DNA of 64,000 nucleotides, from the NCBI GenBank assembly GCA_009667805.1, contig CM019067.1:248717721-248781720 (forward strand), given 5' to 3'. The notes below the pieces were generated by a model, which saw nothing but the letters and a program-made list of their open reading frames with translations, did not search any database and was not told the origin of the DNA. The position numbers and the translations under genes are program-made. Below, piece after piece: positions 1,817-49,800 of the stretch. Within the stretch, counting starts at the first letter, position 1, and each line of letters begins with the position of its first letter. Source of the stretch: Leptobrachium leishanense. Taxonomy: Eukaryota; Chordata; Amphibia; Anura; Megophryidae.

Positions 1817-3436
<1,620 letters not shown>

Positions 3437-4585: not shown

Positions 4586-5082
4586 GGAAAAGAAAATTGG
4601 AAGACCTCAGCGTCTAAAATAAATCCCCGTTGGTCTATTCAAATGGATCACGGGTGTTGGAATCGCCAAAATTGACAAGAAGATGGGTGTAGGATAAAAA
4701 CTTTTATTCCAAAATAAATAAATAAAAAGATGAATTAAATAGCATAATATGCACAAAGCCCAACGCGTTTCGTCTATGAATAGACTTTTTCAAGGGCAAT
4801 ACAAATATATAAATTATAAAAAGCAAAATAAGCATATTATTTTGCTTTTTATAATTTATATATTTGTATTGCCCTTGAAAAAGTCTATTCATAGACGAAA
4901 CGCGTTGGGCTTTGTGCATATTATGCTATTTTATTCATCTTTTTATTTATTTATTTTGGAATAAAAGTTTTTATCCTACACCCATCTTCTTGTCAATTTT
5001 GTCAATTCCAACACCCGTGATCCATTTGAATAGACCAACGGGGATTTATTTTAGACGCTGAGGTCTTCCAATTTTCTTTTCC
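4586..5082. repeat. Near-perfect 497-bp palindrome (246-bp arms, 5-bp spacer)
   Basis: The left arm 4586-4831 and right arm 4837-5082 are reverse complements with only a few mismatches. The spacer is gcata. Both arms carry the motif cgaaacgcgttgggc (at about 4762 and 4897). Because of the symmetry both strands encode the same 71-codon open frame, which is a by-product. The arms look like two inverted copies of a frog repeat joined head to head. Confidence 0.93.
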
Positions 5083-16100: not shown

Positions 16101-19100
16101 TCCTGAGTTTCACCTTTAGTGCATAGACCTGATCAGTGTTTTTATATTATATATTATTCTATTAACTGTTACATTTTATATATGCTCTTCTAGTCATAAT
16201 GCAAAATTTTATTTAATGCAATAAATCCAGTTTATGGATAATGCAATCCAGTGAATACATCAGGTTTGCTAATGTCACCGAGTGAAGACAATGACGGGTG
16301 ATGCCATTTCCATATAGTTTCTTGTTACACAAAGACAATTCCCAGTGATGGGATAAGCCTTGTTAAAGGTCATTTTGTGGTGTGAAACATTGTCCTATCC
16401 AACTGTGTGGGATTAATTGGAAAGCTTTCAACTAGATCTGTGCGCTCATCAGTCAATCATATTGGTTATTGCCGTTGTGACATTTGGGGCTCAATTTAAT
16501 TCTTTCGGCTGGTGTTTTGAAAAAAATATCATCGAGTTTCGACTGATATCATTTTCAAACATCAGCTGATTCATTCAAGAAAATTTGGCCACAGACGAAA
16601 AACGATGCTTGGTCCGAAAAAAATCTGACTAGTAGAATGCCCAAAACAACATACTTTCGGCCGGCACCATATTGATTTTTGTTATTAAGCTTGTCTATTT
16701 GAAAATCCAATGTTAAAATGAGGGTTTCAGTCTGACGTTGTGGTTCCCTGTCTTTCCATTTATCCAAACCTTTCAGCACTTCATATTTTTAAACATCAGC
16801 TTACTGATAATTCGAATCGAATCGCTAAAGCCAACATTTCCATTAGAGTGTACAGATAATACATAACAATAAATGAGGTGAATTTTTAATGGGAATCAAA
16901 TGTTGGTAAACCCTTCATGGATTTGTCAGATTGGGGTGGAAAAATCTGTACATTTCTGTAAAAGAGTTACATTAAATCAAGCCCTTTATTAAAACCTGGG
17001 GCCCTATTCCAAGGTGTAAACTTAACCAGTGCTGTTATAAACTTAACAACTGCATAGAGTATGATGGCTCTGGTAAATTTACAACAGCTTTGGTTCAGCT
17101 AACAAAAAGGGGACCTATTTCATAGTGAACGCTAAATTGGAGACGTTAACCAGGATAATGTGCGCTTTCAGATTTTCCCTCAGTGTCTCCATGTTATCTC
17201 AGCACTTCGTCCCAGAAAGCAGGACTAACCTCCCTGATTCCCCCGCGATGGCGCGAGCATCAGCTGCTGGAGTCCATAGGACTCTATGGAGCCCTGCACT
17301 TCCAAGCCTCGAGCTCTGCTCAAGCTCGCTCTCGTGAGATCGCGAAGTGCCACAGTGTAATTGCGGAAGGAGACTGGGAACTATTTGTTCCGTGTCTTAC
17401 TCTGCTCCTGGTGAGATGCAGTGGATCACGCCATCCCTTTTTGTGATGGGATAAAAATTATGGGATTCTTAGGGGGGGGTTGGAATGTGTTAAATGATTT
17501 TGCATTTGCAGAATTATGTAGCGGCAGCTTTTAGGAGTTGTTAAAAATTTTCATTTCGTGGTAATTTGTGCCTGCACTTTGTAATACCTCCCGTCTCGAG
17601 ACGTTAAAAATAGATTTCGCTCCCCAAGTTAAATATAGGAGGCGCAGAGTACAGTAAGCTTGCGCAAGCTGCGAGGCGCAAACTAATTTCACCCCAGTTT
17701 AGTGTCAACTATAGAATATTGATTCCAGACATTAAACTTACCAATGCTAGCGCTGACGATTACATATTGAAACGCCACATTAACACCAACTATGGAATAG
17801 GGCCCCTGGTGAGTTATAAAAAAGGGAATTGTGTAATGTGTGTGATCTCACAAGATCAAATTATAGATAACTTCTTATTGGTGGAAACCACAAACCCACC
17901 CCCACGTATTCTTATCGGTGCTCCGAGAAATCTGACCATAATCTCTGAGTTTTCCCAAATACTCCATGACCATGACAACGGTTATACTTAATGCATTTTC
18001 CTTCTTTCCTTCATTGTGAGCAGCAGTCCGCAGCCTTACCTGCAGTGCAAAGCCAAGAGGAAGAGGTGGTGAAGTGCCTAAGAGATGAATTTCATGACAC
18101 TGGTTGCAAAATACAGAGCCTTCAAGCAGAAACAGAGTCCCTGAGGACTTTGGTAGGTGGTGCTCCTTACTATAATTTATAAAACAATGCATGGATAAAA
18201 ACAAGAAACATTTCAAAGCTCAGATGGAAGGTGTACTGTGTATCCAGTGGACTGCTACGACCAGTGAAATAGAGATGACCAAAGATACTTTGGATAGCGT
18301 GAATTGCAATTTAGGTTAGATAATGTTTTATAAAAAAAATAGATAAAGAAATAAAAAATTGTCTGCTTCATTGCATCAAAATACTTATTTTTCAGTAGTG
18401 TGTTCTGGTGCTGTCACGCTAACATGATGATGTGCCATCACAACAAGTGTTCCAAAGCAGGAGATGATGAACAAATACAATCGGATATGTTAGTCTAACA
18501 ATTCTAGGTCTCTATGTTCACAGAAAAGAGGTTTGGAGAACTCTCTTCATGATGCTAAGCACTGGCACGACATTGAACTACAGAACTTGGGCTCAGTCAT
18601 CACCAAACTGGAGGCAGAGTTGGAAGAAATAAAAAGTGAAACTGAACAGCACCAGAAGGACAGAGAACATCTGCTGGCCAACAAACACCAGCTTGAAAAT
18701 GAAATTGCAGCATACCACTCCATCCTGGATGGAGAAGAAAACAGGTAGCCTGTTAGTAACCCAATTTACCATTGGGTTGTGGATCTCTATACTGTTATTC
18801 CATAATGCATGTGTAGCGCTCACTCCCGGAGGAGCCGCTGAAAATGAACCACGGGTCAGTCTCCCCGCACTAGGGAATAAATATACTCCAACACCGCTGT
18901 GAGTTTTTATCATTTAAATAGTTTACTAAAATAATAAGCAGATGTTGAGACACGGTATTCACAGATATTATTACAGTACTTTCGTATTGCGGTAAAACGC
19001 GTAGCGGAAAAGAAACGAAACACGAGGCTTCGTATTTCGGAAGAATAAAATATTCGCAACCGAACAGAAAAATATATGCAATTGCCCAATAGTTCGGTAA

Positions 19101-24515: not shown

Positions 24516-25805
24516 GTTATATGGATATATTTTCCCCAGTTCACATGGATATAATTGCCCCAGCTCATATGGGTATATATTGCCCCAGCTCTCATGGATA
24601 ATGCCCCCCGGTCTCATGGATAATGCCCCCCGGTCTCATGGATATGCCCCAGGTCTCATGGATATGCCCCAGGTCTCATGGATATGCCCCAGGTCTCATG
24701 GATAATGCCCCCAGGTCTCATGGATATTGCCCCAGGTCTCATGGATATTGCCCCAGGTCTCATAGATACTGCCCCCAGGTCTCATGGATACTGCCCCCAG
24801 GTCTCATGGATATGCCCCAGGTCTCATGGATATGCCCCAGGTCTCATGGATATTGCCCCCAGGTCTCATGGATATGCCCCAGGTCTCATGGATATTGCCC
24901 CCTGGTCTCATGGATATGCCCCAGGTCTCATGGATATTGCCCCCAGGTCTCATGGATATTGCCCCCAGCTCTCATGGATACTGCCCCAGGACTCATGGAT
25001 ATGCCCCAGGTCTCATGGATATGCCCCAGGTCTCATGGTTAATGCCCCCAGGTCTCATGGATACTGCCCCAGGTCTCATGCATACTGCCCCCAGGTCTCA
25101 TGGATATGCCCCAGCTCTCATGGATACTGCCCCCAGGTCTCATGGATATGCCCCCAGGTCTCATGGATATGCCCCAGCTCTCATGGATATGCCCCCCCAG
25201 GTCTCATGGATATTGCCCCAGGTCTCATGGATATGCCCCCCCAGGTCTCACGGATATTGCCCCCCCCAGGTCTCATGGATATTGCCCCCCAAGTCTCATG
25301 GATATGCCCCCCCAGGTCTCATGGATATTGCCCCCCAGGTCTCATGGATAGTGCCCCCCCAGGTCTCATGGATATGCCCCAGGTCTCATGGATAGTGCCC
25401 CCCCCAGGTCTCATGGATATTGCCCCCCCAGGTCTCATGGATATGCCCCCCCAGGTCTCATGGATATTGCCCCCCAGGTCTCATGGATATGCCCCCCCAG
25501 GTCTCATGGATAGTGCCCCCCCAGGTCTCATGGATATGCCCCAGGTCTCATGGATAGTGCCCCCCCCAGGTCTCATGGATATTGCCCCCAGGTCACATGG
25601 ATATGCCCCCCCAGGTCTCATGGATAGTGCCCCCCCCAGGTCTCATGGATAGTGCCCCCCCCAGGTCTCATGGATATTGCCCCCCAGGTCTCATGGATAG
25701 TGCCCCCCCAGGTCTCATGGATATGCCCCCCCAGGTCACATGGATATGCCCCCCCAGGTCTCATGGATAGTGCCCCCCCCAGGTCTCATGGATACTGCCC
25801 CCAGC
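24516..25805. repeat. 20-26-bp minisatellite in hAT element 2
   Basis: Roughly 60 units of aggtctcatggatatgcccc. The C-run grows from four near the left end to six to eight near the right end, giving a directional change in unit type. Long plus-strand open frames (up to 324 codons) are by-products. Confidence 0.92.
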
Positions 25806-25831
25806 CCAGCTCACCTTTGCTGCTCCTCTGC

Positions 25832-25965
25832 CAGCGGCCGCGTGCTTCCTGCTTCAGCGGCCGCTGACAGGAAGTGCAGCCGCTCGCCTGGGATCTATGA
25901 AACAGCCAGGCGAGCGGCTCCACCTCCTGTCACCGGCCCTTGTAACAGGAAGCACGCGGCCGCCG
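25832..25965. repeat. GC-rich hairpin of hAT element 2
   Basis: Arm ggccgcgtgcttcctg ... gaagtgcagccgctcgcctg is followed by the inverse caggcgagcggctccacc ... acaggaagcacgcggcc. It corresponds to the hairpin in element 1 with different spacer bases. Confidence 0.85.
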
Positions 25966-26097
25966 GCAATGTGCGGCGGCGGCGTTCGGGCTCGGGCCAC
26001 AGCGGGAACGCTGCATTCCCGCAGCGTTCCCGCTGTGGGAGAAGTGCGGGAACGCCGTTCCTGCGCGTTCCCGCTCGACTCGAGCCCTGCGTTAGCT

Positions 26098-27470
26098 GCG
26101 GTATTAGCAGACTATTAAGATCCAAACGCAAACGGGTTAAAAAAAAACTTTTGCGTTTGGTACCTTGCGCTTCTCAGTGCGAGGTCACTGCACTTTGCGC
26201 TCCCTATACTTAACATGGGGAGCGAAAAGTGTTAATCAGTGCTGGTATTACAATGTCCCAGCGCTGATTAACGCCTGGCTCTGGTCAACGAAAAGTTAAC
26301 CAGAGCCAGGACCTGGTGTTAACGGATTCCGCTCCTACAGAATCCGTTAACACCAGCTCTAAAAATAAAAAAAAACAACCAGATACTCACCCTCTGTCCC
26401 GCGGCGAGGACAGCGGCTCCGGTCGCCTCCTCCGGCCGGTGCAAGATCCGGCCGGTCACGTGACCGGCAGAGAGAAACTCAGTGGAGTTCTATGGACTCC
26501 AGCGAGAGGATGCTCGTGGCTGCGCTCAGCGCTGCAGCGAGCATCCTAAGTTTTAACGGCCGAAAACAATGCAGGCAGCATTTTTTGCGCCTGCATTGTA
26601 ATCTGGCGTTAAAACGCGGGCGCAAGGGGGAAAACTGTGGGCGCAGTTTTTCCTCCCTTGCACCCGCGTTTTAACGTACAGATTGTAATAGAGCCCTAAT
26701 ACAGGGATGCTAACGGGGAAATTCTGCACCTGCAGATTTCCCCATAGCCTCCCTGTGTTGATGCGATATTCCGAAGCAGGCGGTAGTTCAGCATCTTGCC
26801 TCTGAGTGGCAGCGAGTATCACCTCCTGGAGTCCATAGGACACCATGGAGGGTTTCGCTTTCGGGGCACGAGCCCTACATGATCTTGCTCTCGCGAGATC
26901 GCGCAGCAACACTGAGAAATCGTGGATGCATACTGGGAACTATTTGTTCGGCCCACCATTCTCACCGCGGGATGAGAGGTGAGTATCAGAATTATTGGGG
27001 GGGGGTGTTACATGATTCTGCCAGTGCATGTAACGCCAGCTTTTAGAAGGTGCTAACTTTTGGCACTCTGCATTCCTGTGGTAATTAGCACTAGCACTTT
27101 GTAGTACCTTACTTAATGAAATGCTAATTAATGTGGAGCCGGCAGGAGGGGTTAATGCCGGTGGGGTATACTAGTACGCCCCGACACCAAGTGCTGCAGC
27201 GGGCCTTTTCTTTGGCCCGCCCTGGTAGCTGACACGCGTCGTGTGTCATTAGCTGCAGAGGGATGGCCTGAGTTCAGGCTGTCCCACAGAATCGTGCGCT
27301 GGGAGGGGCCGAGGTGGCCCATAGAAGTCAATGGGGCGTACTAGTGCGCCCCACGGCTTCAAGGCCCACCCGCCGCAGGGAAGGCATAGTACTCCCTTCG
27401 GAGGGAAAGGGTTAAGTAAACGATGCGCAAAGTACAGTAAGCTCGTGGAAGCTAGCGCAAAAATCAATGC
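26098..27470. repeat. Decayed foldback repeat complex
   Basis: Contains a perfect small hairpin (gtgttaacggattccgctcc then gaatccgttaacac), the hallmark gggaactatttgttcg at about 26935, and sequence similar in order to the right half of 17000-17804. It is the right part of the repeat split by hAT element 2. No gene. Confidence 0.5.
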
Positions 27471-28675: not shown

Positions 28676-28850
28676 CAGGGTTATTCAGAGAGCGGTGAAA
28701 AGCAGGAGAATAACTGGAGAAGTGAAAATTCTAGGTCAAAATAGCCAAACCAGAAAAATTCTCCCATTTAACTCACTTTCCAAATTGGCTATTTGGTCTA
28801 GATTGTTCTCTTCTCCTGCCAGTTCTCCTGGCTTTCACCTCTCTCTCGGG
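28676..28850. mobile_element. MITE M, inverted copy in element A
   Basis: Starts cagggttattcagagagcgg, contains attctaggtcaaaatagcc, and ends near cctggctttcacctctctc. It is the first of three abutting copies of the family. Confidence 0.7.
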
Positions 28851-29325
28851 GTTGTTCAGAGAAAGGTGAAAACCAGGAGAATGGCAGGAAAAGAGAACAA
28901 TCTGGACCAAATAGCCGATTTGGAAAGTGAGATAAGGCTAGGGTCAGACTAACGCATTTTTCGCAGCGACCGTCAAAAAGTGCGTCCGAACGCATTGCCG
29001 GTCATACGATGCGCATTTTTGTGCGTGATTTTTTACGGATCCAAACCAGGAAACTTTGTGTGTCTGGACATTATGTTGGCCGGACATGAGTAGGGTCTGA
29101 CGTCTCCAAATCACGCACACACGCCGCTAGTGGATGCAGCGCACTCTGTACGTCCGTACTAGCAGTTCTGCGTTCTCGAAAAAATGCGTTCATTTTCCAC
29201 TTGCGTTGCGCAGCTGGAATTTCGTGCAACCGTACTTCGTATATTGGCCGTCATTGCCCGTCATTTGCTGCTAGTGCGGCCGTGATTAAGTGCGCCTAAA
29301 CGCACGTTAAAAATTCGCTAGTCTG

Positions 29326-31558: not shown

Positions 31559-31669
31559 AAATTCGCTAGTCTGACCCTAGCCTAAAGGGGAGAATTTTTC
31601 TGGTTTGGCTATTTTGACCTAGAATTTTCCATTCTCCAGTCATTCTCCTGCTCTTCACCGCTCTCTGAA

Positions 31670-31830
31670 TAACCCTGACAGGGTTATTCAGAGAAAGGTG
31701 AAACTCAGGAGAATGACTGGAGAATGGAAAATTCTAGGTCAAAATAGCCGAACCAGAAAAATTCTCCAAATCGGCTTTTTGGTCTAGAAGTTTCCATTCT
31801 CCTGCTTTTCACCGCCAAAAAATCAGTAAA
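31670..31830. mobile_element. MITE M, third copy
   Basis: Opens cagggttattcagagaaagg directly after the second copy and ends near cctgcttttcaccgcc. The right terminal bases are missing. Confidence 0.65.
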
Positions 31831-31907
31831 CTTTTTCTGCGTGTACGAAAATGTCTCCTCTTTTCATACAGACTGCCACCCCAAGCAGTTGTTTATGGAT
31901 AGATTAA

Positions 31908-33126
31908 CCCTTTCGCTGCTGAGGCTTTTCCCGCCCCTGTGCTGAGGTCATTTTTACCGGTTTTGCTCATCATGTTTAAATGTGTTTTGAAGGCTTATTT
32001 TAGTATATGACCCAGACATATTATATATCGTTCTTTCCGTCAGACTCGGCAGATTCATAATATGTCATTATTATATGTATACGTCATGACCTGTCTGTAT
32101 ATTATAACAAAAAATGCAATAAAATATGATTTTTCAATAATTTACAATGTGTAAAGTGTTTTTTTTTCACATTTTAACATGCGAGCAATTGCGGTTATAT
32201 TTTGTATGGGCTGCGCTTGTTAAAAAAATTAGAGATGGGGTCTCGTTACATTTTTTTTTGGGGAAAATTACACGATTTTTAACAAACGCACCGCAACAAA
32301 AATCGGTAGTGCAGCATCATTGTTCACATTATAATTGAAATGGGAACAATATTGCTGCATTAACAAACCAAAAAAAAGAAAAAAAACTTTTTTTTTTTTT
32401 TAAATACTTTTTTATTTTGATTTTTTTTTTTTTTTTTTTACTAACTGTTTTCACATTCGAGTTTGGTATCGTTGGAACGGCCATGCTCTGGCCGATCCAA
32501 CAATACCAACTTTTAACCCCTAGCTGCCACGGATCGGGAGATAGGGGATTCATTGGAACCCCCTATCTCCACCATTGGTGGCAGCTAGGGGTTAACTCCA
32601 GGACTGGCGTCATCGTGCAATGCACGATGATGCCAGTCCTCAGGGGGAGTTCCCGGAGGCTTGGCCGACATCCAAGATGTCGGCCAGCTCCGGGAAAGGA
32701 TCACGAACCGGCGCTTTTCAGCGCCGATTCGTGATCCGGCTCCCCAGGGGTTAATGCCAGGTACCATTTGGAAGGGCAGGCTGTGCCCTTCCAAATGGTG
32801 CCTGGGTTAACCCCCGCAACGCCGCCGATCGGGAGGGAGAGAGGTCTGAAGGACCTCCCCCATCCCTTTCAGGCGCCTCCTCCGCACATGCGGGGGGGGG
32901 GCGCCTGAATTAGGTGTCATCGGCGGCGCGATGACACCTAATTAGCCCGGCGGCGGTTCCGGATGCTGGGCTGACATCGAGGATGTCAGCCCGCACCGGG
33001 GGGGCCAGCGATCGGCCAGAACCCGGCCGAACGCTGACCCCAAAGGCTGGACGCGCTCAGCGCATCCTCCGCATGCAACGTGACATGCGGTTGGACGCGC
33101 TGAGCGCGTTCACCGCAGCGAAAGGG
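31908..33126. mobile_element. piggyBac-like non-autonomous element with TTAA duplication
   Basis: Ends ccctttcgctgc and gcagcgaaaggg are inverted and flanked by TTAA (31904-31907 and 33127-33130). The related element at 43963 has an uninterrupted TTAA at the matching site, which confirms the insertion. It is 1219 bp with no transposase gene. The left half is AT-rich; the right half (32465-33110) is GC-rich and consists of consecutive hairpins. Confidence 0.85.
32465..33110. repeat. Chain of about twelve consecutive hairpins
   Basis: Perfect or near-perfect inverted repeats follow one another with little spacing: 32465-32507, 32513-32595, 32600-32640, 32650-32696, 32698-32737, 32747-32814, 32841-32857, 32870-32907, 32908-32943, 32968-32992, 33003-33039 and about 33048-33110. 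Examples are ggactggcgtcatcgtgc with its inverse, and attaggtgtcat with atgacacctaat. Together they cover most of 646 bp. Confidence 0.9.
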
Positions 33127-33552
33127 TTAAAGGAAAAGCATTTACCGTCATTTGAAATGTCATTTTTTGGTTTTTACATATTTCTATACATCCTAGAAAT
33201 CCGCCACTTCACGGGCAGGTTATGGGGACCTCCTAGACACGATATTTGAAGGAATTTTTGGTTTTTATTTTTAACCCTTATTTCATGGAAAACTCACTGT
33301 CCCTTTAAAAACTTTTTTTTTTTACTTTTTGTCCTTGTTTCCTGTCCCCCAGGGCACTACCCGGACCCCCATACACCTTTTATGGCAAATATGTAGCATA
33401 TATGCCCTCTTGGAGGGCACTCTAAAAAACCGAATTTTCAGCCCCATTGACTTGCATGGGGGTTCGGGTTCGGGTTCGGGTTCGGACCCGAACAAATGGG
33501 AAGTTCGGGTTCGGGCCCGAACCGAACTCGGGGGGTGTTCGGCTCATTCCAT

Positions 33553-35655: not shown

Positions 35656-36945
35656 ATGGATCCAGACACTGCTGCCAAATGGTGTGAGGAGCAAAGTAGT
35701 CAGATAGAATTATGCATAGTCATGGATATTCCTGCAGAAACTTGAGCCGAAGATCAGATTCGCCGGGCCGTGGCCGAGCTGACACCAGATCATCGGGGGT
35801 TAATCCTGGACATTAATGCGAACCCAGATACTTCTCACACGTATGTTCTTTTTGAATGGAGAAAGGGTGTTCCAGTGTGTTTTCAGGGCGCAAGTGTGAA
35901 GCTGACCGATGAGGTGGAGGTTCAACTGTTTCAGCCAAGTGCGCCACGTGGCGATCACACGAGTGTTCCCGCGCCCAGTCCACTGGCCATGATCGGGCCT
36001 GAATTTATAGTGGCTATTGGAGATTTGCTGGCTAAATGTCAAAGAACAAGCCCTCTGCACACTAACTTTGGTTATCGACGGTTGAGAAATTTTACAGGAA
36101 ACGTACCAACTCCGGCAGGAGAGGAAACCTTCGAAGAATGGGTAGAACAGGCGATGCAGGCTCTGGATGAGTGGGACGTCCCCGAAGCTCAGAAGAAGCA
36201 AAGAATTACTGAGAGTCTAAAGGGACCTGCGTCAGAGGCTGTCAGAAACCTAAAATTGAGCAAACAAGACTGCACTGCGTTAGATTACCTAAACGTACTA
36301 CAGGAAGTTTTTGGGCGAACGGAATAGGCTGCGGAGCTCGTGTACCAGTATGAACATACTTACCAGCGGAAAGGTGAGAAGATGACTGAATATATGAGGC
36401 GCCTAGATAAGATTAACCGAGGTAACCGAGAGTTGAAATACCTAGAACTGATCCGAGCTGTGAGAGAGGAAGAGGCTCTACTTGAAGAGAAATCCCTTAG
36501 GAGAGGAGAAAGAGCTTACGCACAGCCCATGAGGCATAACGAATGTTTGCAAGCGGAAGATGATTCATTAGACACCTATGGATCCGAAGTGGATGAACAG
36601 GAGCATCTGGTTGTTTCTAAATCCACAGAGAATGCTGCAAGAGAGCAAATTATTCCTACATACAGTGAAATCCACAAAACTGTTAAGAAAGTGCAACAAG
36701 CTCAAGCTGAATTGCAACAGGCACACACGGACCTTTTGAAGGTGGCAGAGACACATACCGATATGCAGAAGTTCCTTACTGATATGCGGACAACTGGAGT
36801 TGCTGTGCTGTCTGGCCAGGGTCCTTCAACTGAATCACCACAAGCGAGTGCGTCTCCGTCTTCAAAGAAGAGATGTTTTAGTTGTGGGGAAATGGTCATT
36901 TCCGAGCGCAGTGCAAAAGCCGAAAGCCTGAAGGAAATAGGGTAG
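35656..36945 (+). pseudogene. PNMA-like gag, broken
   Basis: An ATG at 35656 opens a frame with stops at codon 30 (35743) and at 36325, then continues in the same frame to 36945. The capsid-like part includes EEWVEQAMQALDEWDVPEAQ and SEAVRNLKLSKQD, resembling the gag type from which the vertebrate PNMA genes derive. A coiled, Gln/Glu-rich stretch follows. A CCHC zinc knuckle begins CFSCGE near 36872 but is lost to a one-base frameshift. The structural protein cannot be made. Confidence 0.75.
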
Positions 36946-37012
36946 AAGAGTTCCTAAAAGCATTGGAAGGGCTGCTATCTACCTCACTAGTGGGAAACGC
37001 CAGAGGGCCCAA

Positions 37013-37951
37013 GTGAAGGAGCAAACTAGGGGCCCAACGGTTAAAGACTGCTCCAGAAATCAAGCCAGGACTGAAAGGCCGAGAAGGCCCAGAGTTTCGC
37101 CAACTGCTGAGCCTGCCAGGACTGAAAAAGTTACTCCCTTAGCATCCGGTCCTACGTCATGGGGAGGCAATGCACACCCAAAACCTACACGGGTCAAGAA
37201 GAAGGCCAGGGTACAGCAAACGGGGTCTAAACTTCCTGCTACTACGACAAAGTTTCCTGACCAGCTGATAGGTCCTTCTCCCATCGTTCCAAACCAAGTA
37301 GAGGGAGTCTATACAAAAGCTCTGTTGGACTCAGAGGCTCAAGTGACATTGATCTACCGAGACTTCTACGAGAAGCACTTGAAACACATACCTCTACAGA
37401 AGTTAAAGGACCTTGAAATCTGGGGTATCGGGACTGAGAAACTTCCCTATGACGGATATCTACAGGTGAAGTTAGAGATCGGATCTGAAGTCATCGGACA
37501 GTCTGGAGGTTGTGATGCATTGGCCATTGTGTGTCCTCGGCCTTCAGGGGCCAACCGAAGTTCTATGATAGTGGGGACGAATACCGATCTGGTGCGACGT
37601 CTTTTGACTCCTTTAGTACTGGAAGAAGGTTCTACCAGGGGAGTACACCCGATGTTATGTCCAGTCTATCAGCGAATGGTCGAAGAACAGAAGGCACCTG
37701 CTGAAGTGGGGTGCCTGTGGAGATTGGGAAGAACAGAAAAGGTTCTGCAATCAGGAGAAGTGGCGAGTTTCCGGGCTTCAGTCAAGTTGAATGGATCGCA
37801 ACCAGGTCCCTATGTGGGACTGGAAACTGATTTCAATCATGGGAGTGAAGCCGGAGTAGAAGTAATCCCTGAAATAATCTCCACTAAAGCTTTGAAACGA
37901 ACACGAGGAAGAGTCTCAATCAGTGTATGTAATGTTCTGATTTTCCAGTAA
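37013..37951 (+). pseudogene. Retropepsin-type protease region, active site altered
   Basis: 312 codons. The protease core reads KALLDSEAQVTLIYRDF. The usual active-site triad is Asp-Ser/Thr-Gly, and here the Gly is Glu, which should abolish activity. The downstream part links to the reverse transcriptase but is out of frame with it. Confidence 0.7.
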
Positions 37952-37965
37952 TCCTAAAAGCACGA

Positions 37966-39102
37966 ATGCCTATCGGGCAAGTGGTGTCCGCTACGCCTCT
38001 CTCTCCTACCAATTTAGGAGGGGGAGCGAATAAAGAGATCCCAGCTGACAGGTTCTATCCCAAGGACGCTCCCATCTCGCTTGAATGGAAGAAAAGTCTT
38101 CAGTCCAGGGTCCTAAAGTGGAGAGACTTGTTCTCAAAGGATGAGTTCGACGTGGGCCTAGCTAAGAGTACTGAGCATCGCATTCGACTGCAAGAAGATA
38201 AGCCATTTCGAGAAAGGTCAAGACGAGTTCCGCTGGGAAACTTGGATGATCTAAGAGAACAGCTGAATGAACTGCAAAGAACTAAGGTGATTCAGGAGTC
38301 CAGGAGTCCGTACGCTTCTCCCATAGTGATGGTTCGGAAGAAGAATGGTTCTGTCCGTCTATGCATAGACTATTGCACGCTAAATCGGAGAACCATCCCA
38401 GATCAATACGCCACTCCTCGGATAGAAGATGCCTTACAGTGTTTGTCTGGAGCAAAATGGTTTAGTGTACTAGACCTGCGAAGTGGGTATCACCAGATAC
38501 CAATGCATCCTGAAGACAAAGAGAAGACTGCGTTCATCTGCCCACTGGGGTTCTTTGAGTTCAACAGAATGCCTCAAGGCCTTACGAGGGCTCCAGCCAC
38601 GTTCCAACGGTTAATGGAGAAGACAGTCGGGGACATGAACCTGATCGAAGTGTTGGTGTATCTGGATGACATAATTGTGTTTGGAAAGACTTTGGAAGAA
38701 CATGAGCAATGGTTGGAGAAGGTCTTGAAGCGGCTCCATGAAGAGGGGTTGAAACTGTCTCTGGAGAAGTGCCAATTCTGTCTACCTTCCATTACGTATC
38801 TGGGACATGTTGTTTCAGCAGAAGGCGTTTCGACGGATCCTCGAAAGTTGGAAGCCGTAGCTTCCTGGCTTAGACCCCGAAATGTTACTGAACTTAGATC
38901 TTTCTTGGGGTTCTGCTCCTATTACCGAATATTCGTAGGAGGATTTGCCAAGATAGCTCAACCACTGAACAAGCTCCTGCAGAAGGTAGACGCAGAAGAA
39001 GGCCACAAGGCCTCTGACCGAAATTCGTTGGCTCCAGGGCCAAGGAAGGCTCGAGAATCTACCAAGGAGAATGGACTAGTCAATGCGAAGGTGCTTTCAT
39101 GA
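37966..39102 (+). pseudogene. Reverse transcriptase domain
   Basis: 378 codons with the RT palm signatures: SPYASPIVMVRKKNGS, LDLRSGYHQIPMHPEDKEKT, FNRMPQGL and the catalytic EVLVYLDDIIVFGK, then the thumb LSLEKCQFCLPSITYLGHVV. The frame is lost just before RNase H at about 39080. The motif normally IDYR reads IDYC. Confidence 0.85.
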
Positions 39103-40433
39103 AACTGAAAGAGAGTCTAACTCGAGCTCCTGTCTTGGCCTACGCTGACCCTCATAAGCCGTACGAATTGCATGTGGATGCCAGCAGAGAAGGTCTAGGG
39201 GGAGTCCTATACCAAGAAAATGGTGGATTGTTCAGGCCTGTAGCCTATGTGAGCCGGAGTCTTACACCTTCAGAAAAGAATTATCCTACCCACAAGTTGG
39301 AGTTCCTAGCTTTGAAGTGGGCGGTGGTAGACAAGCTGAAAGACTATCTGTATGGAGCCGAATTTGTGATAAAAACTGATAACAATCCTCTTACCTACGT
39401 CCTTACTACTGCGAAACTGGATGCAACGGGACATCGGTGGTTGGCCGCTCTGTCAGGGTTTAGGTTCAGCCAGAAGTATCGCCCTGGAGTGAATAATCGA
39501 GATGCCGATGCTTTGTCAAGAAGGCCCTACACTACAGAATGGACTCAGTTAACTCCAGATGGGGTGCAAGCTTTATGTCAAGGAGCAGAGCGCCGGGTCA
39601 AGGGAGGGATTGAAGCAGAAGCCATAGGAGTTATGGCTGCGGCTGTTCCAGAGTTCTATTGTAATCCTACGCAGCTGAGGGATGAAAGTTTGCCTACTTT
39701 CTCGAAACAAGACCTGAGAGCTGATCAGGCTGGAGACCCTTTGATTGAATTAACCGTGAAGGCCCTAAACGCGAACCAACGGGAAATTCTTCTGACAAAT
39801 TCCCCAGAAGGGGCCAGATTGGTATACAAGGAGTGGGAACGGTTGAAGATGTTGGATGGGGTGGTCTACCAAAGGGGCCCCTCAAACAATGCTGGAGAAA
39901 CCCAACAGTTGTTCCTTCCCACCAAACACCGAGAGGATGTGCTGCGGTCATTACACGATGACCATGGACATTTAGGTGCAGAGAGAACTTTTAAGCTGGT
40001 GCGAGACCGATTCTATTGGCCCTGCATGAGACCTGAAGTTGAGAGTTACTGCCACTCATGTCTGAGGTGTATCCAAAGGAAGACTCTACCAACCCGAACT
40101 GCTCCAATGAGCCACCTGCAAAGTCAAGGACCCATGGATTTGGTGTGCATTGACTTCCTGTGCTTAGAGCCGGATGCTAGTGGGCAGGGAAATATCTTAG
40201 TGGTGACTGATCATTTCACGCGTTATGCCCAAGCTTTTTCTACGAAAGACCAACGTGCTCCTACAGTGGCGAAGGTTTTAATGGAAAGGTTTTTTGTTCA
40301 CTATGGCCTGCCAAGGAGAATACACTCGGATCAGGGTAGAGACTTTGAGAGCCGGCTTGTTGGGCAATTACTGGAACTGCTGGGAATTCAGAATACCCGA
40401 ACTACACCATATCACCCTCAAGGTGATGCTTAA
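39099..40433 (+). pseudogene. RNase H and integrase (zinc finger plus most of the core)
   Basis: 444 codons. RNase H acidic residues lie in ELHVDASREGLGG, HKLEFLALKWA, IKTDNNPL and RDADALSRR. The integrase HHCC zinc finger lies in DDHGHLGAERTF ... CHSCLRC, and the core aspartates in CIDFLCLEP and IHSDQGRDFES. It ends at a TAA replacing a conserved Gln codon just before the catalytic Glu. The same frame continues to 40706. Confidence 0.85.
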
Positions 40434-41265
40434 CCAGAAAGATTCAATCGCACTCTACTAAATATGTTGGGGACATTATCAAACAGAGAGAAGCAGAGCT
40501 GGAGTTGTCACATAGCCACGCTAGTACATGCCTACAACAGTACGGAGAGTGACGCTACTGGATACTCACCGTACCGTCTTATGTTCGGAAGGGAAGCTCG
40601 ACTGCCGGTTGATTTGGCGTTCGGGCTATCTCTGGATCAGACGTCTGTAGCCTCTCATAGGAATTATGTGGATAGACTTCGAAGGAATTTTGGCCTCTGC
40701 GTTTGAACAGGCCCGTTTGACCTCTGGGAACAGGGAACAGAGGAATAAGCGAAACTACGACTTGAAATTTCGGATACAGGATCTACAACCCGGTGATAGG
40801 GTTTTGTTGAAGAACTTGGGTGCTTCTGCCAGGCATAAGTTGGCAGATAGATGGAGTTCTCAAGTCTACATTGTCTGCAAGCAACTGCCGGGTCTGCCAG
40901 TTTACCAGATTCGACCGGATGGAAAGGCTGGGCCTCTTAAAAACTGGCACCGGAATCATCTGCTACCTCTGAGAGAAGCTGTAAGGATACCAGTTGGAGA
41001 CGAACTTTCTCTGCCAAACCCGCCTCTTCCTGCTCCACGTTTGACTCCCGTTACTCGGTCTCAGCAGATACGGGTTGTGGAAGAAAGTGAAGGGAATAGT
41101 GAGGAAGAAAGCTTTTGTCTGGACTGGGTGCGCTCACCAGAGCCTGAAGAGGTCATTCCAGTTCCCGAATGGTGGGAAAGTAACCTGAGGCCTGAGGCTC
41201 CAGAATTCCAGCTGGAAATTCCTGAAACTTCTGAAATTCCTGTAGTTCCTGAAAACGCATCCTGA
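40434..41265 (+). pseudogene. Integrase C-terminal part
   Basis: The frame after the stop reads PERFNRTLLNMLGTLS with the integrase catalytic Glu. Near 40690 it shifts to another frame that carries the GPY/F-like domain (GDRVLLKNLG, YQIRPDGKAGPLKNWHRNHL) and an acidic, Pro-rich tail. No chromodomain was seen. Confidence 0.75.
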
Positions 41266-41942: not shown

Positions 41943-44290
41943 TATTATAAGCAACGGTTTATTAGATATTGAATTAAAAACTAATGTCTTAAGTGCAAAG
42001 ATTCTCACCTCTAAATGACCTGTGTTGTCAAAGTTGTAAACAACAGGTGTTTTTAGTCCGGTGTAATGAATTTGATACATTGTATGTATGTAGAGTATAC
42101 TAAGGTGTGTTGTCTGCTTCTGAGAAGTGTTAATTTCTCTGCTAAATTTTCCTCTAATATGCTGCATATCACTGCTGTGTGCTCAGCTAATTTTTACCAC
42201 TTTCGCTCATCATGTTTAAACGCGATTTGAAGCCACATTTTATTAAATAACACAGACATATTAGATATCATTCTTTCCGGCAGACTCCGCAGATTCATAA
42301 TATATCATTTTTATATGTATACGTCATGTCCTGCCTGTATATTATGACAACAAATGCAATAGAAATTTAATTTTTAATCATCTGCAGTGTGTAAAGTGTT
42401 TTTTTTTCACATTTTAGCACATGAGCGTTTGCGGTTATGTTTTCTATAGGGTGCGCTTGTACAAAAATTAGAAATGGGGACTTGTTACATTTTGTGGGGG
42501 GAATTACGTGATTTATAGCAAAGAAAAAAATCATTAGTGCATCATCGTTCACATTATAATTGAAATGTGAACAATATTGCTGCATTAATAAAAATAACGC
42601 ACAAAAAAAATACATGATTTTTTTTTATTTTTTTAACTTTATACCTGGTCATGTTGGGTATCATTCGAAACCGGGTACCGGAGATACCCTTGCAGTATAA
42701 GCAGAATGTACCGGAGATACCCCTGCAGTATAAGCAGAATGTACCGGAGATACCCCTGCAGTATAAGCGGAATGTACCGGAGATACCCCTGCAGTATAAG
42801 CACAATGTACCGGGGATACCCCTTCAGTATAAGCACAATGTACCGGAGATACCCCTGCAGTATAAGCACAATGTACCGGGGATACCCCTGCAGTATAAGC
42901 ACAATGTACCGGAGATACCCCTGCAGCATAAGCGGAATGTACCGGAGATACCTCTGCAGTATAAGCACAATGTACCAGGGATACCCCTGCAGTATAAGCA
43001 CAATGTACCGGAGATACCCCTGCAGTATAAGCGGAATGTACCGGAGATACCCCTGCAGTATAAGCAGAATGTACCGGAGATACCCCTGCAGTATAAGCGG
43101 AATGTACCGGAGATACCCCTGCAGTATAAGCAGAATGTACCGGAGATACCCCTGCAGTATAAGCACAATGTACCGGGGATACCCCTGCAGTATAAGCACA
43201 ATGTACCGGAGATACCCCTGCAGTATAAGTGGAATGTACCGGAGATACCCCTGCAGTATAAGCACAATGTACCGGAGATACTCCTGCAGTATAAGCAGAA
43301 TGTACTGGAGATACCCCTGCAGTATAAGCAGAATGTACCGGAGATACCCCTGCAGTATAAGCGGAATGTACCGGAGATACCCCTGCAGTATAAGCACAAT
43401 GTACCGGAGATACCCCTGTAGTATAAGCACAATGTACCGGAGATACCCCTGCAGTATAAGCGGAATGTAACGGAGATACCCCTGCAGTATAAGCGGAATG
43501 TACCGGAGATACCCCTGCAGTATAAGCACAATGTACCGGAGATACCCCTGCAGTATAAGCGGAATGTACTGGAGATACCCCTGCAGTATAAGCGGAATGT
43601 ACTGGAGATACCCCTGCAGTATAAGCAGAATGTACTGGAGATACCCCTGCAGTATAAGCGGAATGTACCGGAGATACCCCTGCAGTATAAGCACAATGTA
43701 CTGGAGATACCCCTGTAGTATAAGCACAATGTACCGGAGATACCCCTGCAGTATAAGCACAATGTACTGGAGATACCCCTGTAGTATAAGCACAATGTAC
43801 CGGAGATACCCCTGCAGTATAAGTGGAATGTAACGGAGATACCCCTGCAGTATAAGCGGAATGTACCGGAGATACCCCTGCAGTATAAGCACAATGTACC
43901 AGAGATACCCGGTCTCCTCTTTTAATACAGACTGCCGCCCCAAGCAGTTGTTTATGAATAGATTAAAGAAAAAGCATTTATCGTCATTTGAAACGTCATT
44001 TTTTAGTTTTTAAGTGTTTAACCCTTATTTCATGGAAAACTCACTGTCCCTTTAAAAACGTTTTATTTTATCCTTTTTGTCCTTGTTTCCTGTCCCCCAG
44101 GGCACTACCCGGACCCCCATACACCTTTTATGGCAAATATCTAGCATATATGCCCTCTTGGACGGCACTCTAAAAATCGAATTTTCAGCCCCATTGACTT
44201 GCATTGAGTTCGAGTTCGAGTTCGAATTCGAACATTTGAAAAGTTCGAGTTTGAATGCGAACTGAACTCGGGGGTGTTCGGCTCATCCCT
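41943..44290. mobile_element. Element B, relative of element A, carrying a 33-bp satellite
   Basis: Colinear with 28390-33552 but lacking its left terminus. The shared module aacggtttattagatattga is at 41954. A piggyBac-like left half (42185-42640, like 31940-32430) leads into the satellite, then the body resumes at 43912. The right end is ggtgttcggctcatccct. The hexamer run is ttcgag here, where element A has ttcggg. Confidence 0.7.
42671..43912. repeat. 33-bp satellite, about 37 units
   Basis: Unit ggagatacccctgcagtata followed by agcacaatgtacc, with three main variants at the agcaca / agcgga / agcaga position. Almost every unit has a PstI site (ctgcag). Because 33 is a multiple of three, the array is open for over 250 codons on the plus strand and 434 codons on the minus strand; these are not considered genes. 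The array is bracketed by short inverted accgggta / tacccggt. Confidence 0.95.
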
Positions 44291-44533
44291 AATTACAAAG
44301 TGCTAGCGCTAATCACCATCAGGATGCGCAACGCAAAACTTTAGCTACACCTAAAAGCTGCTGCAAAATGATTCTGCAAATGCTAAATCATTTAGCACCC
44401 TCTAAAAAAAAACCAACAATAAATCCCATACGTGAGAACGGTGGCCCAATCTGCCACTTCTTCTGTCTGCGAGCAGTCCTCCTATTGATTCCAGTTGGTG
44501 ATGCTCGCGGCGGCACAGAGGTGTACCACGTGT
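44291..44533. repeat. Foldback-family remnant interrupted by hAT element 3
   Basis: Contains aaagctgctgcaaaatgat and similar wording found in the ggccctatt family elements. No gene. Confidence 0.4.
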
Positions 44534-45875: not shown

Positions 45876-46054
45876 CAGGGTTATTCAGAGAAAGGTGAAA
45901 ACCAGGAGAATTGGCAGAAGAGAACAATGTAGACCAAATAGCCGATTTAGAAAGTGAGATAAATGGGAGAATTTTTCTGGTTTGGCTATTTTGACCTAGA
46001 ATTTTCACTTCTCCAGTCATTATCCTGCTTTTCACCTTTCTTTGAATAGACCTG
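45876..46054. mobile_element. MITE M, intact-looking copy upstream of CDV3
   Basis: Ends cagggttattcagagaaagg and ctttctttgaatagacctg. The interior has gaacaatgtagaccaaatag and ttctggtttggctattttga. It lies about 350 bp before the CDV3 promoter region. Confidence 0.75.
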
Positions 46055-46399
46055 TGTGGAATAGTGCTCAGAGAAGGGATGCACCCAACATGAAGATGAC
46101 GAATCATATTATCCTAGAGGCAGCTGGGAGATTTTCAGTCCCTTTAGGTTCTACATAAGGTGTCTACACCCTGATAAAAAAATAATATTTAGTATTGTTA
46201 AAGAATGCCAAATCTAAAATCAGTATAAGCCTCCTGCATGGCAGCTACCAAACGCTGCATAACTCAACACGGTGTGTAACTGATAGAGATTTATTGTTCC
46301 TACAAATAAAGCTGATTAAAAAAAACAAGCTACGTAAGAGCTATGACACGTTCTCGGCTCAAGCGAAATAAAGGGGGAAGGAGGTGGAATGCACCATCC

Positions 46400-46610
46400 T
46401 AAGTACATGCATGGGGGGGTTTTATATCTCAGCACACGTGACCGAGTGCTGAAGCAGGAGACGGCTGGGCTCTGCCCACCCCCCCTAGTGAGGTACGGAT
46501 GGTCTGTTCCCGGGTGTGGGCAACTCTTCCGGCCTCTCCTCCGTCTCAGTCTCAGTGAGCGTGACCGGTGCGTGTCGCACGGGCGCATTAACACTGCGTG
46601 TCTCGTCAGC
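46400..46610 (+). promoter_or_regulatory. CDV3: CDV3 promoter and 5' UTR, CpG-rich
   Basis: CpG density rises sharply from about 46.43 kb to 46.9 kb against CpG-poor flanks. A CACGTGAC E-box (USF type) at 46435-46442 and an ETS/GABP-type CTTCCGG at 46526-46532 are followed by a CT-rich stretch. This suits a broad housekeeping promoter. A weak TATA-like tttatat at 46421 is probably incidental. The transcription start cannot be fixed from sequence. Confidence 0.6.
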
Positions 46611-46841
46611 ATGGCCGAGCCAGAGGAGAGAAGCCTGGACGACTTCTTCGCCAAGAGGGACAAGAAGAAGAAAAAGGATAAGGCGGGCGCCGCTGCAGCA
46701 GCGGGTAGCAGGGGATCTCCTAGGCCGCCGGAGGGAAGCCAGTCCTCCGCCTCCTCCGTGAGCTCCGGGTCAGGGCCGAGCAAGCTCTCCAGGAAGGACA
46801 AGTATGGCAAGAGTGAGGGCCAGGACAACCAACTGGAGAAG
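46611..46841 (+). CDS. CDV3: CDV3 exon 1 (coding part)
   Basis: The 77 codons begin MAEPEERSLDDFFAKRDKKK, continue into an Ala-rich stretch and a Ser/Gly-rich low-complexity segment, and end QDNQLEK before the donor gtgagg. Base composition is GC- and CpG-rich, unlike the surrounding DNA, as expected for a first exon in a CpG island. The long antisense open frame over it is a by-product of this composition. Confidence 0.95.
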
Positions 46842-49800
46842 GTGAGGGGTAGCGCCGCCATGACGGGCACTGCGCACCTACAAACCCACTCTACAGTATG
46901 GGCCGGCCTGCAGCTGCTAGACTGCGTTTCCCTTGAGGCCTTGCTGCATTCTGGGCCTGTGGTGTAGCCTGACACACGTGGCGGGGCTGAGCTGCTCCCA
47001 TTGGTGCCGTGTCTGGCCTTCTGCCATGTGTAGGGGTGCGATGCCATGTTCGTGAGGCAGATTAGCCTATTTATCGCCCGGGTTGGCATGCAGCCGCCGA
47101 ACAGAATGAGCACCAGCCTCACGGGAGGGGGGGGGTGCTATAATCCCCCGTTGCACCTCACTGATGTCAGGCCCCAACCTGCACAGCACGTGACCTGCAG
47201 ATGGTATTCACTGTGTGCATGTCACCTGGCTGTGGAATGCTCAGACCTGTCACCTCGCCATAGGGATTGGTTAAACCCTTAACCTCGATTCCATAAAGTG
47301 TAGCTGTGCTTGGCTGACAGCGTTTGACCCACGAGCCTTGGGGATCAGCTGAGCACAATGCTGCCATACAGTAACATGGCAAACCATTACTACTGTGATC
47401 CAGAGCTCCATGTGATATGTCTCCACACAGTGGGAATGGGAAAGGGATTTTCTGGTGCATCCATAAAAAAGGTCTGTTTTAAATACCCCCCCCCCCCCCC
47501 AACATTGTTAAAACGATGACCAAGCATATCCCCAGCCATGGACTACTCTGCACAATTCTGGGTTGATATCCTCAGTTCGACTTGAAATGTTTTGGGAGGG
47601 GTAGGAGGCTGGGTATTCCAACCTAAACATGGGTTCCAACCTGTCTGGTGCCATCTGACAGCTTTGTGGATGGTGAGGGTTGGGCACTTGTCAAACCATG
47701 AACATTTAAACCTCACACTGTGGTTGTGGCGGCTGGATTGCCCCTTCTAATGGATATGTCAAAGCTAACCGAGCCTGTGACTGTACATACTCTAAAACGC
47801 GTAGTCTCAGCTGTATTTGACAAACTGATCAACCTGAGGAACCTTTTAGTCACGAAAAGCTTCAATATGGATTTCTGAGAATACAGTAATTTTAGGGGTA
47901 AAACCTGAAGGAGCCTGTTAATTCCAACCCTTGGATTTTTTCAAATCCAGCTATGCCAGTGGATCCTGACCCTGGTCCGCAAGTACCCTAACAGGACTGG
48001 TTTGCCAAATGTGTAAGGCACAAGTGATCAGTGATTGCAGGATTCAGTCTGCGTTTCATCAAGGTAATCCCTTAAATCTGGCCTGTTGGGGTACCGGAGG
48101 ACTGGAGCTGGGAACCTCAGATCTATGCAATCTAGCTTTTGCTGTGATGTCTGAAGAGACCTGGATGTGGCAGAAACTGCTCAGCACATCCTAAAGGACT
48201 GCTTTAGCTGAATTTACTACATGGTTGCGGTGGCTGGAGTGTCCCCTGACTGCTGAGAGGCACTTTCAAATTAGGTCTGTCGTCTCTACCGTTCAAAATC
48301 CTTTTGACGGTTGATTTTTAAAAATTGAGTTACAGCACAGGGGTGCCTCTCTTCTGAATTTGGATGCATCTGATTGGCTGTGTATGATGATCAGTGGGCC
48401 AGCAGTTGGTGGCTGTCTTCTAGACCAGAGATCAGCAACCTTTGCTCTCCAAATATTTTGGAACGTTTGAGGATCTGCTATGGGGTTAAGTGTGTATTCT
48501 ATACAGATGATTTTAGCGGTTCATAACTTTAACCTAAAAAATAGACTTAAAAAATAGACTTAATTTGGCAGATCTCAGCCTCTGACATGCAATACAGACT
48601 CTGACGGTACAAGGAACAAGACAAAACTATATGAATGTCCCGTGGCATAATAAGCTTCTAAAAGTACTCGTATGGAGTACAAGGTGTTCCAGAACAAAGA
48701 ATTTCTTGATCCAGCATACACTGGTTATGAATGAGTCCAAGGACAAGTCAGTTTCAGATGACACCTGGCATTCACTGTTGTGTCCAACCAATCCAGGAGG
48801 TCTCTTCATGTAGACTGTCCAGGCCACAAGGGGTGGGGTTAAACCGTAAACCCTGTCTCTGTACCCCCTCTTTAACCCTTTATTTACGTTGGAGGGACAT
48901 GAGCCTTGAAGCTCAGGACTCCTACGAAACATGAGATATAGTTGACCCTTTATTAAAGATTACTTATACCCTAGCTGGTTTTGAAATCAACTAAAAAAAT
49001 AAATATATAATTTCAAATCTTTTCGTCCTTTACAGACATTATGTTAAATGGTTCTGAATGTAATGTTTTTTTTTTTTTTGTTTTTTTTTAAATGTATGGC
49101 ACAATTAAACATAGGTTCTGCATTATCGGCAGAAATGGCAATTGTGTCAAATGGGGTAAATGTGATTAAAAATGGTCAGATCTCCTTTCACGGGGATTTT
49201 GAGTGATCCATATGAGGTTAATGACTTTTTCAATAAGTGACTCCTCACCCTTTGCAGAGGTTTTATTTTGGCATTTTTTTTTTTTTTTAATTTCGGTTGC
49301 AAACCCCCTCTAAAAGTGTTTAGGATGTTTTTTTTTTTTTTTTCCTCCATGATCTAAATTTTATATATTTTTCCTTTTTTATTTGTTTTGATCACCTGGT
49401 CTGAACACCAAAGTGGAAAGTGCCTGCGTGGGAATTCGCAGCTGTTTGAACACACTGGATTTGCTTTTCTCTGCTAAATATTCTGTTAAATGGGCCTTTG
49501 CAAGGACTCCCCAGCTTGATTGTCCCTTTATCAATAGGTTTGAATTTTTTTCATTCAAAATTGTCATTTTGAAAGCACGTTCGCAGCACTTCAAGCCCGA
49601 GAAGGTGACCAAGGCAGCCGCACGGAGCCAACATTTAAAGTCTCATATAGAAGAAAAATCAATAAGCAAATCAAGAACCATAAAACAAATCAAGGGGGGG
49701 GAGGGGACAGGGAAGGAATATGTAGGTGTATGTCCCAGGACCCACAAGTAAACAGTGATGGGAATGGCAAAGGCCCAATATGTGACCTTTCTGGCTCTCC

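Follow-up and report, generated by a model that had tools for sequence, protein, structure and literature searches.

Transposons and MITEs of the piggyBac superfamily include TxpB/Uribo of Xenopus, and MITEs in general usually measure under about 800 bp. Transposons with strong secondary structure are also familiar, the Foldback and Angel-type elements, whose structure consists of one large fold; the element described here instead carries a row of unrelated hairpins. Among the piggyBac MITEs, the coral CMITE families are like the present element in their TTAA target, their ends starting with CCC and their non-coding copies, and the left end of family VI, CCCTTTCACTGCCA, is close to CCCTTTCGCTGC of our element (PMC2872659). 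CMITE families IV-VI are however about 96-108 bp long, while the element here is 1.23 kb and has about a dozen end hairpins, and the words hairpin and palindrom are absent from the main text of that report (PMC2872659). The piggyBac and piggyBat transposases bind palindromes in the element ends via paired cysteine-rich domains, and those ends are asymmetric and carry palindromes, as here (PMC11707139). The left end of piggyBat has three imperfect copies of a short palindrome and piggyBac has a 19-bp palindrome at both ends; these palindromes are short and of one shared sequence (PMC11707139), whereas the stems in our element are long and mutually unrelated and are at most candidate binding sites.

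Hairpins ascribed to template switching show perfect stems, compensated changes and loop inversions, as here, but were studied in RNA genes and yeast coding genes, whereas the present ones lie in a transposon that has neutral control copies (PMC8794818, PMC8604942); the term transpos is absent from the main text of PMC8794818. Inserted copies of the present element, unlike the setting of those studies, show no arm correction at the hairpin that we call H3. Numerous perfect inverted repeats in one genome, as here, are also described as the coding palindromes of nematomorphs, which are mitochondrial and lie within genes rather than in a transposon (PMC6649704). Searches of the open-access literature brought up no piggyBac element with serial hairpins, which is weak evidence of novelty.

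The element, its family and its hairpins

The window, by which we mean the whole 64,000-nucleotide stretch of Leptobrachium leishanense DNA that was analyzed, contains one copy of a very large non-autonomous piggyBac-like family that inserts at TTAA. The first-pass annotation had called the element piggyBac-like, and its TTAA ends, an empty site and many dispersed copies support this identity. Both termini carry the exact 16-nt inverted end TTAACCCTTTCGCTGC, which is TTAA followed by CCCTTTCGCTGC; the short terminal inverted repeats begin with CCC, and the insertion is a precise one with TTAA duplication. The features are as follows.

31904..33130, + strand: whole element, piggyBac-like and non-autonomous, 1,227 bp including TTAA at each end
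31904..31919, + strand: left terminal inverted repeat with TTAA target site
31920..32362, + strand: left half, AT-rich, without hairpin array
32363..32451, + strand: tract of an A-run followed by a T-run, separating left half from array, read from the sequence
32463..32509, no strand: H1, from folding
32513..32595, no strand: H2, outer stem TTAACCCCTAGCTGCCAC/GTGGCAGCTAGGGGTTAA, inverted repeat of 18 nt, 100%
32537..32570, no strand: H2 inner tip, in both orientations among copies (inverted-repeat listing and orientation calls in copies)
32600..32640, no strand: H3, inverted repeat, used in the genome-wide double-mutant test
32650..32696, no strand: H4a, from the fold, within a closing stem shared with H4b
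32698..32737, no strand: H4b, inverted repeat
32747..32815, no strand: H5, longest stem, inverted repeat of 32 nt, 84%
32831..32866, no strand: H6, from the fold
32868..32909, no strand: H7, inverted repeat
32908..32943, no strand: H8, inverted repeat
32959..32999, no strand: H9, from the fold; core resembles that of H4a (19/23 by eye, without a BLAST match)
33005..33037, no strand: H10, from the fold
33048..33112, no strand: H11, nearest the right end, inverted repeat, each arm near-palindromic (GGACGCGCTSAGCGCGTCC in the consensus)
33115..33130, - strand: right terminal inverted repeat with TTAA target site, variable among copies (GAAAGGG, GAAGTGG, GAAGGGG)
43963..43966, no strand: TTAA of the empty-site paralogue, where the two flanks of the element meet without it

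The flanks match the empty site at 94% over 48 bp on the left (31853-31900) and, by eye, from 33131 onward on the right. The empty-site paralogue of the flanks closes a stretch (42178-44300) that begins with a homologue of the left half, 81% identical between 31938-32400 and 42178-42626, and continues with a minisatellite of about 33 bp per unit (by eye). None of the 35 closed frames of at least 140 aa listed in the window lies within 31904-33130. The element thus resembles a MITE in being non-coding and of high copy number with inverted ends, but its 1,227 bp exceed the MITE length of less than about 800 bp, and non-autonomous piggyBac-like element is the better name for it.

Allowing up to 2 mismatches, the genome contains 39,257 matches to the 30-nt left end and 0 to a control sequence. 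When the right half was used as the query, 3,954 candidates emerged; 40 of them were scored and match at 93-100%. Thirty of these best matches were fetched; all 30 start at element position 1 with the left half and have TTAA at the left end, 28 reach the right end and 27 have TTAA there, the exceptions being two copies that end early (L006, L023) and one whose row extended into a second element (L024). The right half alone was not seen among these 30, which were read out of the 40 scored and are best matches. Their flanks differ except in the pairs L018/L019 and L025/L029, each apparently one locus represented twice. Among the first 30 exact left ends on contig C1, 23 align with the consensus as a single piece to at least position 1217, and another 3 extend to the end as two pieces. 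In total 120 loci were examined: L001-L030, a biased sample because they are the best matches to the window copy, and L031-L120, 90 loci that come from the first 91 exact left ends on C1 after that of L014 was skipped. A single full-length match was obtained for 92 loci, and 91 were aligned, L019 being left out because it duplicates L018; both L025 and L029 were kept despite their matching flanks. The counts exclude the remaining 28 loci, which carry deletions or truncations, are composite or were cut at the fetched edge. Two pairs of loci (L045/L046 and L043/L044) are composite copies whose left ends face each other about 1.3-1.5 kb apart.

The hairpin array takes up 53% of the element, its right half, and the hairpins are common to the sampled full-length copies. 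As DNA, 32465-33110 folds at -274.8 kcal/mol, against a mean of -129.6 (sd 4.65) for 20 dinucleotide shuffles (z -31.2); with RNA parameters the values are -476.2 against -274.6 (sd 6.4; z -31.4), and 0 of 20 shuffles folded as well or better in either case. The row of hairpins noted in the first-pass annotation is thus confirmed. Eight local inverted repeats with arms of 15-32 nt, 81-100% complementary, lie in 32513-33112, and 540 of the 650 right-half positions are paired in the consensus of a 29-copy set; the stem sequences are mutually unrelated. The first-pass annotation had described twelve consecutive, back-to-back hairpins. About a dozen hairpins are indeed found, but back-to-back slightly simplifies an array that is partly nested and branched, with an inner hairpin in H2, H4a and H4b within one closing stem and H6-H8 in a multibranch. 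Its view that serial hairpins are unusual for a MITE is supported by the folds, and the literature searches brought up no described case.

Strong folding is also found elsewhere in the window. A second, unrelated hairpin row (25800-26760, DNA z -29) adjoins a minisatellite, and its first part recurs at 11809-12199 with 80% identity. Related long palindromic repeats with ends near CAGGGTTATTCAGAGA occupy 31567-31790, 28676-28930, 45876-46054 and 16038-16143, one of them with 83 base pairs, and 4586-5082 is a near-perfect palindrome of 243 base pairs with a 5-base loop. The window also holds a Tc1/mariner-type transposase frame (2169-3218; HTH_Tnp_Tc3_2, DDE_3), a retroelement with reverse transcriptase (35746-41265; RVT_1 at 37933-39099) and a frame at 46347-46967 that we take to be CDV3-like and that has no Pfam match.

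Compensatory changes, arm correction and tip orientation

The best explanation as a whole, which we regard as evenly balanced between right and wrong, is that the hairpin array is a DNA-level end module selected in active lineages. The main competing account is that the array is a mutational by-product: template switching between arms during replication or the repair of transposition would create the hairpins, correct their arms and flip their tips, and the array would be a functionless passenger. We treat this as a real possibility while leaning against it. Template switching is known to homogenize arms and invert spacers (PMC8604942) and has been proposed both to create and to maintain hairpins (PMC8794818).

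Changes at 283 stem pairs were counted on a FastTree tree of the 91 copies with Fitch reconstruction; the counts are approximate, the tree being shallow and the copies possibly recombining. The stem pairs come from a consensus fold, which favors pairing, and slid partners and random pairing served as controls. There were 27 double changes, 21 of which end in a canonical pair, against 2-8 canonical doubles for slid partners and a mean of 2.7 (maximum 8 in 200) for random pairing. Compensatory Watson-Crick doubles numbered 10 on internal branches where 0.56 were expected (P 5e-10) and 11 on terminal branches where 2.64 were expected (P 1e-4); restricted to non-CpG pairs, the numbers are 6 against 0.21 and 5 against 0.49. 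Compensatory changes among genome copies, on which the first-pass annotation had proposed to judge the stems, are therefore present, most strongly on internal branches. Clear cases are the pairs 657/670 (AT 62, GC 26, AC 1, GT 1) and 1022/1049 (GC 76, TA 12, GA 2, TC 1), while some stem pairs have common unpaired states (CC in 29 copies at 936/1057, CT in 35 at 925/1066). Doubles of any outcome also exceed expectation (13 against 1.62 on internal and 14 against 5.25 on terminal branches), and 3 non-Watson-Crick doubles were observed on internal branches, with 3 against 0.44 for non-CpG pairs, somewhat above expectation; part of the co-change may therefore be due to tree error, clustered change or another cause. 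The terminal-branch excess of compensated doubles, which counts in favor of the by-product account, reflects either unsampled source lineages or rare arm correction.

One of the sampled loci (L070) led to an older subfamily, whose copies have 79-83% identity with the young consensus in the stretch of best match; of these, 8 loci were fetched, 7 aligned and 5 found to be full length. The hairpins are retained in this subfamily. The old and young consensus sequences are 86% identical over 1,203 columns, fold at -481 and -523 kcal/mol respectively with RNA parameters, and share 209 pairs in their predicted structures. In the union of their pairs, both bases differ between the subfamilies at 24, of which 15 form a Watson-Crick pair in each subfamily, against at most 5 fully compensated pairs for slid partners and at most 6 in 1,000 random pairings; a further 79 pairs changed on one side only, and 61 of them switch between Watson-Crick and no pair. 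That many changes lack compensation weighs against a selected structure. The first-pass annotation had also held that mutations appear to be kept low within stems, and this we reject. Copies diverge from the consensus at non-CpG sites by 0.0121 in stems, compared with 0.0119 in the left half, and between the subfamilies this divergence is 14.2% in stems, 5.6% in the left half and 32.7% in the non-stem part of the right half. That stems diverge faster than the left half is odd for a selected structure and is a point for the by-product account.

The inserted copies offer a direct comparison of compensated and non-compensated mutations. H3 has two facing CpGs, at which the same four changes give either compensated or non-compensated doubles. 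Genome-wide, 81 + 38 = 119 copies are compensated and 111 are not (binomial P 0.64). Loop letters are visible in 88 of the 111 non-compensated copies and assign, by eye, 41 to one type, 46 to the other and 1 to neither; scaled to 52 and 58, these give an odds ratio of 1.02. At H4a the one compensated type counted has 134 copies and the two non-compensated types together have 285, so that there is no excess over 285/2. Arm homogenization above the level of independent mutation was thus not seen in neutral copies at the 2 of 25 CpG/CpG stem steps counted genome-wide (H3 and, for one compensated type, H4a). Neither arm correction nor constraint is detectable in inserted copies at these sites, which speaks against the by-product account there and best places the compensation in lineages that kept transposing. 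Arm correction in every copy had been suggested by the 29-copy set, in which all 15 doubles are paired, and by the terminal-branch excess; the genome-wide H3 counts do not support it. In the sample itself, compensated doubles occur at 8 of the 25 CpG steps (79 cells) and non-compensated ones at 1 step (1 cell); this test counts copies that share changes and so supports compensation in source lineages, not correction copy by copy.

The orientation of the hairpin tips gives some support to the by-product account. The H2 tip is nearer the reversed form in 10 of the 91 young copies and in 4 of the 7 old ones, an inversion of the kind expected of hairpins maintained by template switching. Its orientation takes 11 parsimony steps on the tree, against a mean of 12.4 and a least value of 10 for shuffled labels, with 13 reversed labels in total. 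Flips as scattered as shuffled labels point to template switching or to copies exchanging sequence, and the 11 steps indicate that a mutational hairpin process exists. Reversed calls were made in 1-3 of 91 copies at H3 and in 17 of 91 at the H8 loop. Against this account, eight tips (H1, H4a, H4b, H5, H6, H7, H9 and H10) gave no reversed call among the 82-91 young copies called; at H7, 2 of 7 old copies were called reversed. The earlier suggestion of template switching is partly supported, by the repeated flips of the H2 tip but not by arm correction, which is undetectable in individual copies at H3. In a variant of the by-product account, arm correction or template switching may be tied to the transposition event itself and serve no function. 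On balance we favor selection in active lineages over template switching alone, and we infer the function itself.

Improbable alternatives: RNA structure and nested insertion

A selected RNA structure would have the array transcribed and its fold serving as a decoy, a small-RNA precursor or a processing signal. The very stable RNA fold (z about -31) and the compensatory changes are what such a structure would be expected to show, the latter being its usual hallmark. Selection on one strand should also give an excess of G-T over A-C among single breaks, and the two are about equally common (17 vs 22 on internal and 152 vs 164 on terminal branches), although transcription from both strands would hide this signature. 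No Rfam match at the gathering threshold was found in the whole 64-kb window. Constraint on a sense-strand RNA is accordingly not supported, and we consider an RNA function improbable. The idea that the structure is selected thus stands for source lineages, where the compensatory changes lie, and is not supported for a sense-strand RNA, in which G-T would be preferred over A-C.

It is very improbable that small palindromic TTAA elements inserted into one another to build the array, which then became fixed in one element: the outer stem of H2 starts and ends with TTAACCCC/GGGGTTAA and the stems of H5 include GGTTAA, but such TTAA-like bounds occur in the window sequence at H2 and H5 only, and the old-subfamily consensus already has both hairpins.

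An autonomous element and the proposed end module

A Pfam profile search for piggyBac transposases gave 10,295 candidates, 116 of which were scored, with all the matches listed over the cut-off. From these loci one element was read (L129, L130). It has an intact 568-aa frame (DDE_Tnp_1_7, E 1.2e-91) whose nearest solved protein is piggyBat (E 2e-66). Its putative left end, TTAACCCCTTAAGGACC, lies at L130:717 and is followed by hairpins to about L129:580, an array of which 610 nt have a z of -26.7 and which holds a 140-bp internal tandem duplication (75%). Downstream of the transposase frame, at L129:2750-3500, a tandem repeat with a unit of some hundreds of bases is seen by eye. The two arrays have no sequence match except A/T tracts, and each lies next to one end of its element (putative in the autonomous element) with an A/T-run tract beside it (A-rich in the autonomous element). 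That two unrelated arrays occupy the same place suggests, from these two cases, a trait of the transposon type rather than one accident. The putative end CCCCTTAAGGACC of this one element differs from CCCTTTCGCTGC, and its role as mobilizer of the present family is therefore putative.

As we picture the selected end module, the array would act as DNA, its cruciform or palindromic sites near one end aiding the transposase or host factors. Because each stem has a sequence of its own, a single binder of specific sequence does not account for them, which argues for recognition of shape rather than sequence; palindromes near an end also fit with the binding of end palindromes by the piggyBac and piggyBat transposases. 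In active lineages the complementarity of the arms would be preserved, whereas inserted copies would drift. Template switching may create and flip hairpins and local duplication may multiply them, and selection on active elements would retain the paired forms. The broader claim, that serial arrays are a selected DNA-level end module of both autonomous and non-autonomous piggyBac elements here, with sequences that differ from family to family, rebuilt by template switching and duplication but with complementary arms preserved in active lineages because mobility requires the folded DNA, falls a little short of an even balance in our judgment and is put forward tentatively.

A functional RNA structure is usually considered proven by compensatory changes. 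In this family they sit in a DNA transposon and lack the G-U signature, and the many thousands of inserted copies provide a neutral control for the same hairpins. Two questions are thereby made testable: whether hairpins can be kept by template switching alone, and whether transposon ends can be selected for the folding of their DNA and not for their sequence.
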